Source: a bacterium (GTDB lineage: Bacteria > CSSED10-310 > JAJRTK01). From it: a stretch of DNA of 7,722 bases. Numbering within the stretch: position 1 is the first letter of the stretch; every line of letters starts with the position of its first letter. A model generated the notes under the pieces. It was given only the letters and a program-made list of their open reading frames with translations. It was not told where the DNA came from and made no database searches. Below, in pieces: positions 2,225 through 3,881 of the stretch. The stretch is from positions 1-7,722 of the forward strand of contig JAJRTK010000328.1 of the NCBI GenBank assembly GCA_024278345.1, given 5' to 3'. Made by a program: the position numbers and the translations under genes.

Positions 2225-2573
2225 TTTTTTGATAAGATTTCCAGTTTCTTGCTCGGCGCCAAGAGCCTGGGATATCCACGCAAAGCGGGACAATGGATCG
2301 ACTGGGAAAGAACACCCACTTTTTCCAAGATGGTTCAGAAGAGGACGAACCGGCTTTCTTCCCGTTGCACCGGCTCCAAGACGGGGGAGGCGCCGGCGAT
2401 CCGGGCAGGAAGCCCTCCCTCTTTGGCAAAGGGCTTGCAAATCCCGGCCCGACAGGGGCTATCCCCGGTGGTGGAGGTCCGGCACACGCTGGTACTCTGG
2501 CGCCCTTGGGGCAGGGACGCCGCCAATCCTCCTCGGTATGGGTGACGGGGTGAAGGCGAACATGACATCAGGT

Positions 2574-2588
2574 CCGGTAGTGAACCGG
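2574..2588 (-). other. hairpin directly 3' of tRNA-Met
   Basis: CCGGT (2574-2578) is complementary to ACCGG (2584-2588) with a 5-base loop, beginning one base beyond the tRNA-Met discriminator in the direction of transcription. No T tract follows. It may be a processing or weak termination signal for the tRNA transcript. On the minus strand the loop region reads TTCACTA, which resembles a T loop but lacks the conserved A58. Confidence 0.35.
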
Positions 2589-2589
2589 G

Positions 2590-2662
2590 AGCTATTTACA
2601 GGAATCGAACCTGCTACACACAGATGATGAGTCTGTTGCTCTACCAAGTGAGCTAAAATAGC
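2590..2662 (-). tRNA. tRNA-Met(CAT), atypical
   Basis: A full cloverleaf can be drawn by hand. The acceptor is GCTATTT (2662-2656)/AAATAGC (2597-2591); the D stem is GCTC/GAGC with GG in the loop; the anticodon stem is ACAGA/TCTGT with loop CTCATCA and anticodon CAT at 2629-2627; the variable loop is GTGTA; the T arm is GCAGG-TTCGATT-CCTGT. CCA is not encoded. Its acceptor is fully paired at position 1, so it is not a normal initiator; it could be elongator Met or, if C34 is modified, an Ile tRNA for AUA. Oddities: pyrimidine C37 where a purine is near-universal, discriminator T73 instead of A, and C15 with A48 in place of the usual G15-C48. It may be a second, degenerate or specialised tRNA rather than the cell's main Met tRNA. 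Confidence 0.8.
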
Positions 2663-2745
2663 GTGTTGCTGAACTTCTAGTTCAGTGCCTTTACCAATTT
2701 GGCCACGCGTCCCACGGACGCGGTGGGAGTCGAACCCACAAACAC
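2663..2745 (-). tRNA. circularly permuted tRNA, Ser(AGA)-like
   Basis: All tRNA arms are present but the 3' half precedes the 5' half. In transcription order: GTGTT-T leader (2745-2740), T arm GTGGG-TTCGACT-CCCAC (2739-2723), acceptor 3' strand CGCGTCC (2722-2716), three bases GTG (2715-2713), acceptor 5' strand GGACGCG (2712-2706), TG, D arm GCC-AAATTGGTAAA-GGC (2703-2687), A26, anticodon arm CTGAA-CTAGAAG-TTCAG (2685-2669), CAACAC (2668-2663), then tRNA-Met begins with no gap. The two acceptor strands pair 7 of 7. The 3-bp GCC/GGC D stem, G73 and a possible long variable arm (AACAC with GTGTT) fit tRNA-Ser. Loop position 34-36 reads AGA, which would read UCU codons but is rare in bacteria; the D-arm sequence also resembles tRNA-Gln. 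Function would need either circularisation or a two-piece molecule held by the acceptor and variable-arm helices. A dead remnant of a tandem duplication is the main alternative. Confidence 0.6.
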
Positions 2746-2753
2746 ATGGTGGA

Positions 2754-2790
2754 GGCTACCCGCCCCCGGGGATTTTGAAGGCTACCCGCC
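2754..2790. repeat. short direct repeat GGCTACCCGCC
   Basis: Two exact 11-base copies at 2754-2764 and 2780-2790, with GGAGGC (2751-2756) and GCCTCC (2788-2793) also forming an inverted pair at the outer ends. It lies in the leader of the permuted tRNA. It may help fold the precursor or be a small slippage duplication. Confidence 0.5.
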
Positions 2791-2872
2791 TCCAAAGGGA
2801 CCCATTCCTCCGGCTTCGAGGCACTCGAAAACTCCAAGGAGAACGAGGCGCGACCGGCGGCGGAACCTGGAG

Positions 2873-2944
2873 CGTGGGAGGCCGGATTCGAACCGGCGAC
2901 CTCCGGAGACAAATCCGGCGGGCTGCCGCTACCCTACTCCGCAC
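2873..2944 (-). tRNA. tRNA-like gene, Thr(TGT)-like, possibly pseudo
   Basis: The T arm GCCGG-TTCGAAT-CCGGC (2897-2881) is canonical, and the D arm GGGT-AGCGGCA-GCCC keeps A14, G18G19 and A21. Two parts are irregular. The acceptor 5' strand is GTGCGGAG (2944-2937) opposite CTCCCAC (2880-2874): all seven pairs form only if one C is bulged. The anticodon arm CCGGA/TCCGG encloses six bases, TTTGTC (2913-2908), or eight if the A-T pair is opened. Reading T33 then TGT gives a Thr anticodon followed by C37 with position 38 missing. CCA is not encoded. An outer inverted repeat CTGGAGC (2867-2873)/GCTCCAG (2950-2956) encloses the gene. It is either a diverged tRNA or a tRNA pseudogene; amino acid identity is uncertain. 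Confidence 0.5.
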
Positions 2945-3206
2945 GTTGCGCTCCAGACCCGGAGACGCCGACACGGCCCTCGCTCCCGAAGCTCGTTCGA
3001 GGGAAAACTCTCTGCGCACCTGTCCGGCGGAAGAACAAGCAACACGAGGATACCACGAACCCATCGACAAGGCATCTCCCGGTTTCACCGCAAGCACTGT
3101 CAGTCAGCGACGGTTTGCGGCAACATATCGACCCCGAATTGGAAGGTTTTGCCGGAGCGAGCTATACCTGTCCCAGAGCATTCGACAACACTTCAAGGAG
3201 AAAACG

Positions 3207-3881
3207 ATGATCGGCGTTGTCTGTGGCCGCGAGATCGAGGCGATTTCCCTCCGACACCACCTGGACAAGCTGGAAAAAACGGTTCGCCGGGGCCGCCCTT
3301 TCTTCGTGGGCGACTTCAGCTTCGAGCAGGTGGCCATCGTTGTCACCGAGCCTGGAAAGACCATGGTTGCGGCCGGGACCCAGCTTCTCATCGACCTCTA
3401 CCAGCCCCGGCTCGTCGTTTCCTACGGCTGTGCGGGGGCTATCGATCCTCACCGCAAGATCGGAGACGTGATCATCGCCGGTGAAGCCATCGAGCACGAT
3501 GTCGATGCCTTTACGGGCGACGTCAAGCGGTGCGGCGCCGATCCCGAACGGTCTAAAAACCTGTGGCAGGCTCTGCGGGATGATGCCGGACTCTCCAGCC
3601 ACGTGGTCCAAGGCATCGTCATTTCCGGTGATGGCGACATCCGGAGCCACGAACGTAAGGGGCGGCTTTGGGAGAGATTCAAGGCCCAGTCCGTGGACTG
3701 GGAAAGCTCCTCCGTGGCCCGAGTCGCCAAACTCTGTTCCGTGCCATGGCTCTCCGTCCGCATCATCTCGGACCTGGCTGAAGAAGACATGCCCAAGGAG
3801 TTCTCGGAAAACGTGGGCCGCGTTCTGGAAGAGCTTGCGCCCAGATTCCTAGGGGCTCTGGCGGAAACGGGCGGCGTGTGA
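3207..3881 (+). CDS. MTA/SAH nucleosidase-family protein (PNP/UDP phosphorylase fold)
   Basis: The protein has 224 aa, close to the size of known MTA/SAH nucleosidases. The ATG at 3207 has AAGGAG six bases upstream; the frame is open back to 2685 but that part crosses the tRNA cluster and is not coding. The family removes adenine from methylthioadenosine or S-adenosylhomocysteine in cytosolic methyl-cycle salvage. Visible family features: E11 at the position of the catalytic Glu12 of the E. coli enzyme, a GCAGAID loop (74-80) followed by KIGDVIIAGEAIEHDVDAF, SGDGDI (140-145), VDWESSSVA (163-171) at the ribose-binding VEME motif with its Glu kept (E166), and ISDLAE (187-192) with D189 at the catalytic Asp197 position. 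Met173 of the family is replaced by Trp165 and the Phe of the purine pocket by Asp144, so the substrate may differ; related enzymes act in futalosine or hopanoid pathways. It is divergent from the tRNA cluster and 213 bases upstream of the kinase gene. Confidence 0.82.
   Translation: MIGVVCGREIEAISLRHHLDKLEKTVRRGRPFFVGDFSFEQVAIVVTEPGKTMVAAGTQLLIDLYQPRLVVSYGCAGAIDPHRKIGDVIIAGEAIEHDVDAFTGDVKRCGADPERSKNLWQALRDDAGLSSHVVQGIVISGDGDIRSHERKGRLWERFKAQSVDWESSSVARVAKLCSVPWLSVRIISDLAEEDMPKEFSENVGRVLEELAPRFLGALAETGGV

Follow-up and report, generated by a model that had tools for sequence, protein, structure and literature searches.

The window analysed here comprises the whole of one contig (C257; 7722 bases) from a bacterial draft assembly, which amounts to 6.06 Mb in 550 contigs and is 88% complete. 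On the minus strand, an 83-nt stretch at positions 2745-2663 was examined, in which the parts of a tRNA are arranged in an altered order. Two near-identical hairpins, GGAGGC-GGGTA-GCCTTC and GGGGGC-GGGTA-GCCTCC, are located directly upstream of it on the same strand (2746-2800), as recognised by folding and by their direct repeats. Further upstream lies an aberrant tRNA-like gene (2872-2944, minus strand), reported by ARAGORN as 'tRNA-???' and scoring 43.3 bits with Rfam, the fold of which has a 6-nt anticodon loop, a C inserted in the 5' acceptor strand and an additional outer stem GGAGCG/CGCTCC. On the other side, a gene for tRNA-Met(CAT) (2588-2662, minus strand; ARAGORN, Rfam 59.6 bits) begins on the base that follows the element. 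With these two neighbours, the tRNA cluster setting mentioned in a preliminary description of this DNA could be confirmed.

Anatomy and fold of the permuted element

Read along the minus strand, the element starts with GTGTT (2741-2745), the 3' strand of a variable-arm stem, followed by U48 and the T arm GTGGG-TTCGACT-CCCAC (together 2723-2740, the arm itself at 2739-2723) and by the 3' acceptor strand CGCGTCC (2716-2722). After the linker GTG (2713-2715), the first G of which takes the position of the discriminator G73, come the 5' acceptor strand GGACGCG (2706-2712) and a segment (2686-2705) consisting of U8G9, the D arm GCCAAATTGGTAAAGGC and A26. The D arm (2703-2687) has a 3-bp stem, GCC/GGC, enclosing AAATTGGTAAA with G18G19. 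The anticodon arm CTGAA-CTAGAAG-TTCAG (2669-2685), with U33 and the anticodon AGA, was assigned by ARAGORN on the rotated sequence, and C44 with AACAC, the 5' strand of the variable-arm stem, forms the 3' end of the element (2663-2668). All parts named in the preliminary description were found in this order, exact to the base; the variable-arm stem is an addition to it.

The two acceptor strands are complementary in seven out of seven Watson-Crick pairs. The earlier claim that, as perfect complements, they mark two halves that belong together holds, the tRNA and serine-identity features being coherent across both. Acceptor strands of unrelated tRNAs pair this well in 0.02-0.09% of cases, with the five out of five pairs of the variable stem left aside. 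GTGTT and AACAC (2663-2667), the outer ends of the element, are also perfect complements and form a 5-bp variable-arm stem as in class II tRNAs, and the break of the permuted element therefore falls in the variable-arm loop. Two unrelated tRNAs in tandem are ruled out by the complementary acceptor and variable-stem strands. The minimum-energy fold of 2747-2663 is exactly the permuted-tRNA structure, the variable stem included (-31.7 kcal/mol, z -2.4), and a Levitt pair is possible between U48 and A15, which lie in different halves. The acceptor loop is closed and 3 nt long, and no CCA is encoded in the element. ARAGORN made no call in the genomic order and called tRNA-Ser(AGA) after rotation, and a covariance model of permuted tRNAs gave 69.5 bits, a partly circular score as the element is one of the 35 training rows. 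The element is a truly circularly permuted module of the tRNA-Ser type, broken in the variable-arm loop.

A chimeric join made during metagenome assembly could be suspected from the occurrence of the element on a single draft contig of 7722 bases. The collapse of a tandem repeat, however, yields a copy in normal order and not a permuted one, and it is very unlikely that sequences joined at random would recreate an acceptor stem of 7 bp together with a variable stem of 5 bp. An assembly artefact is thus considered highly improbable.

Serine identity and the tRNA set of the host

After rotation, the element has G1G2A3, U70C71C72 and G73, like all four tRNA-Ser of the same genome; the tRNA-Leu of this genome have GC starts and A73. 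The 3-bp D stem with G18G19 is built as in the tRNA-Ser(GCT) and tRNA-Ser(TGA) of the host, and C11:G24 and a long variable arm are also present. In E. coli, G1G2A3, U70C71C72, G73, C11:G24 and the long variable arm are serine identity elements. The general tRNA positions U8, A15:U48, G18G19, U33 and T54T55C56 likewise match the consensus, and some of them pair from one half to the other. The normal tRNA set of the genome includes a complete serine set (CGA, GCT, GGA and TGA), and a search of its tRNAs for another A34 anticodon found none. AGA is therefore both redundant and odd in this genome, and with an unmodified A34 it would be an unusual anticodon for bacteria.

These features have to be weighed for the possibility that the locus is a permuted gene for a working tRNA-Ser, the product of which would either stay in two pieces held together by the acceptor and variable stems, like two-piece tmRNA, or have its ends ligated, for example by RtcB. 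The coherence of the serine and tRNA features across the halves (G1G2A3/U70C71C72, C11:G24, G73, long variable arm, U8, A15:U48, U33) argues for it, as do the location of the break in a variable-arm loop closed by a perfect 5-bp stem and the position within a tRNA cluster. The 3' end of the element also coincides with the RNase P site of the tRNA-Met, which would supply the 3' end of the permuted RNA. In the proposed route, RNase P cleavage at the tRNA-Met would give the 3' end AACAC, and cleavage at GGACGCG with CCA addition at G73 would open the acceptor. The missing CCA, the closed acceptor loop of 3 nt, the unusual AGA and the four serine anticodons already encoded all count against a working tRNA-Ser. 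No bacterial enzyme is known, moreover, for the bulge-helix-bulge route by which algal and archaeal permuted tRNAs are processed. A linker this short has a precedent in the tRNA-Tyr of Thermofilum, where a 1-nt intervening sequence is possible (PMC3978253), and a gene for the RtcB ligase, though interrupted by TAG, is present in the genome.

The RtcB frame (L075, G000:C385:912-2210) carries one TAG near its C-terminal end. TAG also terminates a kinase frame in the window, and the one in RtcB may represent a truncation, an error or recoding.

The two-piece or ligated tRNA-Ser stays under consideration because the serine identity is coherent and the element abuts exactly on the RNase P site of the tRNA-Met, but it is regarded as unlikely on balance. 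The full claim that this circularly permuted gene supplies the bacterium with a working tRNA-Ser, in two pieces or circularised and split in the variable arm, and that an ordinary permuted tRNA exists in Bacteria, is placed lower still.

Permuted tRNAs in other bacteria and in phages

For the identification of relatives, a covariance model was built from 34 ordinary tRNAs rotated by script and the window sequence. Since tandem intact tRNAs also match such a model, each match was examined as to whether its acceptor strands are complementary and whether it overlaps an intact tRNA. In a scan of 386 genomes, in which 12 candidates were scored per genome so that the rarity of permuted tRNAs is an estimate, the best 30 loci contained three permuted genes: the element in the window and one gene each in G135 and G271, the two belonging to one two-species genus. 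About 53 further high-scoring matches over the 386 genomes held no permuted tRNA, the rest of the approximately 80 top matches being tandem intact tRNAs. Both G135 (L118, G135:C201:55746-55816) and G271 (L119, G271:C471:115-185) carry a permuted tRNA-Asn(GTT), with the linkers GTAA and ATGC, respectively. When the search was extended to the class to which G135 belongs, again with a limited number of candidates scored per genome, a permuted tRNA-Leu(TAA) with the linker GTCACT was found in G393 (L293, G393:C4:87250-87323), which belongs to the same bacterial family as the other two and to another genus. In both L118 and L119, another module, which is YrlA-like, lies upstream of the permuted tRNA.

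Several other candidates were rejected. Two pattern matches in genome contigs contained no permuted gene according to the permuted-tRNA scan, matches in Nostoc and Calothrix plasmids proved to be ordinary tandem tRNA-Leu arrays, and L163 and L095, which are phage records with no phrog_850 match, were doubtful and low-scoring and not counted as permuted. Covariation counts in the alignment of rotated tRNAs were not used as evidence, its rows having been permuted by script.

The same gene was found in no relative, which counts against a working tRNA-Ser. When the DNA of the cluster was compared with the 60 nearest genomes available, of which seven belong to the same phylum and none is a close relative, ordinary matches to tRNA parts were the only result; seven loci of same-phylum genomes contained no permuted tRNA, and at the same-phylum loci examined for synteny nothing matched the proteins of the window. 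The permuted element had no match in the rest of its own genome, nor did its T-arm/acceptor pattern in viral contigs.

This lack of conservation beyond the window contig would also suit a rearrangement remnant, in which an acquired tRNA-Ser, present as two copies in tandem, was stripped of both outer halves and left a 3' half, a spacer and a 5' half in a decaying cluster. The aberrant neighbour at 2872-2944 and the tRNA matches that the tRNA-Met has in many phages point in the same direction. Such an origin requires, however, that both outer break points landed in the same variable loop and left complementary strands. No decay is visible, every stem being still perfect, and short-linker permuted tRNAs recur independently elsewhere. 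Decay from tandem copies therefore appears rather improbable.

Pattern scans of viral contigs revealed permuted tRNAs in which the anticodon arm is complete in L089 (three units, of which the second has a weak anticodon arm), L447 and L200, the last sitting inside a large tRNA array. Three further loci (L168, L398 and L409) carry permuted forms broken between the D and anticodon arms. The acceptor loops of the complete permuted tRNAs (L089, L200, L447, G135/G271 and G393) measure 4-7 nt, against 3 nt in the window. All seven sequences rotated for ARAGORN (two L089 units, L118, L119, L200, L293 and L447) were called as tRNAs, with the identities Asn (twice), Leu, Lys, Arg and Phe and one UUA anticodon. 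In L089 (IMGVR_UViG_3300035698_017305), the reverse complement of 2500-3580 consists of seven Y-RNA-like units beside a phrog_850 gene. All seven have a common outer stem, marked by CCTACAG and CGACT as internal-loop motifs, around a permuted tRNA, a tRNA-Asn(ATT) in normal order or a small hairpin. By a simple duplex test the outer stems were significant for two L089 units, L447 and L409 and not significant for the other loci, including L200, the fold of which has a 10-bp outer stem.

Ro60-related proteins and tRNA mimicry

The gene adjoining the L089 array matches phrog_850, annotated as 'RNA-binding protein'. A phrog_850 protein was detected in all six tested genomes with permuted tRNA modules, namely those of the bacteria G135, G271 and G393 and of the L089, L200 and L168 phages (E 1e-11 to 1e-142), and in the background of 59 other genomes it was strong in three and weak in one. 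The six out of six are a lead and not a tested association, because the three bacterial carriers are related to each other and L398, L409 and L447 were examined within fetched stretches only, with no match. One strong background match (L296, in G011) is a plain Ro60 by sequence, with E of about 1e-108 to the PDB structures of Ro60/Rsr. About 500 bases from this gene lies a YrlA-like RNA (L364/L052, G011:C15, about 18334-18464) with a T arm, an acceptor hairpin, a D arm and an Asn-type anticodon-like arm (loop CTGTTAA), broken between the D and anticodon arms. The phrog_850 proteins of G135 and of the L200 phage fall in the DUF2828/DUF7788 branch, which presumably acts as Ro60, and those of G271 and G393 are similar to these two proteins. 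An AlphaFold model of the L200 phage protein had a pLDDT of 50 and was left unused. TROVE proteins with a tRNA-like partner are known to occur in phages (PMC7824862).

A search for TROVE and phrog_850 in the 88% complete host genome yielded nothing beyond generic vWA similarity. The flanks of the element showed no significant pairing into an outer (basal, Ro60-binding) stem (z -0.23), the tRNA-Met abutting on one side. With the Rfam YrlA model (RF02553) the element scored 29.2 bits, far under the gathering cut-off of 69. This cut-off is not strict, because the YrlA-like RNA beside the true Ro60 gene in G011 scores only 39.5. Assignment to YrlA by Rfam score was nevertheless rejected, the score lying under the cut-off and ordinary tandem tRNAs also giving weak YrlA scores. 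On the features tested (basal stem, Ro60 gene and score) the element is not a member of YrlA, yet in anatomy it is most like YrlA.

The closest look-alikes, found in phages and a few bacteria, suggest a tRNA mimic more than a tRNA used in translation, with the latter as a less probable alternative. We tentatively favour a tRNA-mimicking non-coding RNA of the same general kind as the YrlA-type bacterial Y RNAs, for which we infer transcription, processing, mimicry and function. The transcript would present the T arm, the closed acceptor hairpin, the D arm and the anticodon arm in this order and obtain its 3' end through RNase P cleavage at the tRNA-Met that abuts on it. It would then adopt the L-shape of a tRNA, though not of one that can be charged, and act by being taken for a tRNA by tRNA-binding or tRNA-modifying proteins. 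Modification by TruB and DusA is reported for YrlA. The mimic would be an orphan here, as the host genome was searched for both a Y-type outer stem and a Ro60 gene and neither was detected. Structure and fold, the similar permuted modules elsewhere, their co-occurrence with Ro60-superfamily genes, the weak YrlA match and the redundant AGA suggest mimicry. Against it stands the intact serine identity, which with G73 and the 5-bp variable arm exceeds the needs of a mimic. The undetected Ro60 gene, the missing outer stem and the YrlA score far under the cut-off also count against it, together with the published description of YrlA and other Y RNAs, in which the basal stem is the Ro60-binding part and the resemblance to tRNA is limited to the D, T and acceptor arms (PMC8394870). 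Overall, the mimic is ranked first, the two-piece or ligated tRNA-Ser second and the remnant of tandem copies third. The circular permutation of gene order claimed in the preliminary description stands; that description left unconsidered the YrlA/Y-RNA kind of permuted tRNA mimic, to which the comparisons point.

Either of the first two readings would be informative. Reviews name only algae, a nucleomorph and one archaeon, Thermofilum pendens, and no bacterium, for permuted tRNA genes, with intervening sequences of 1 to 74 nt (PMC3978253, PMC4033280). Titles and abstracts of the later open-access papers retrieved mention no bacterial permuted tRNA, which is weak evidence. With a working tRNA, the permuted class would come to include bacteria, and the element could be a case in which no splicing endonuclease is needed to make a tRNA. 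If the element is a mimic, Y-RNA-like mimicry can span a whole tRNA, anticodon arm and amino-acid identity included, without a recognisable Ro60. As permuted full tRNAs occur in Ro60-bearing phages and bacteria, the question can be tested in several hosts.

The element can be compared with four kinds of permuted RNA. With YrlA and the other bacterial Y RNAs (Ro60/Rsr-bound, RF02553) it shares the succession of T arm, closed acceptor hairpin and D arm, the short acceptor loop and the tRNA mimicry proposed here; unlike them, it includes a variable-arm stem and the whole anticodon arm, and it lacks the basal Ro60-binding stem and a detected Ro60 gene. The permuted tRNAs of algae, the nucleomorph and Thermofilum pendens likewise have the 3' half first, a short intervening sequence and a full cloverleaf on rotation, and Ser(AGA) is among the permuted tRNAs of the B. 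natans nucleomorph. Their junctions lie at 15/16, 20/21, 37/38, 50/51 and 59/60, whereas that of the present element is in the variable-arm loop, and its host is bacterial. Two-piece tmRNA, found in several bacterial lineages, is also encoded by a permuted bacterial gene, and the pieces of the present RNA could similarly stay base-paired; in contrast to tmRNA, the element has an anticodon arm, a 3-nt linker and no tag reading frame, and an Rfam search of the window gave no match to the tmRNA family. The phage modules (L089, L200, L447, L168, L398 and L409) resemble it in the permuted tRNA and short acceptor loop, that of L200 also lying within a tRNA array, and differ from it in the longer stem around several of them and in the phrog_850 protein encoded by each of the three phage genomes that were tested.
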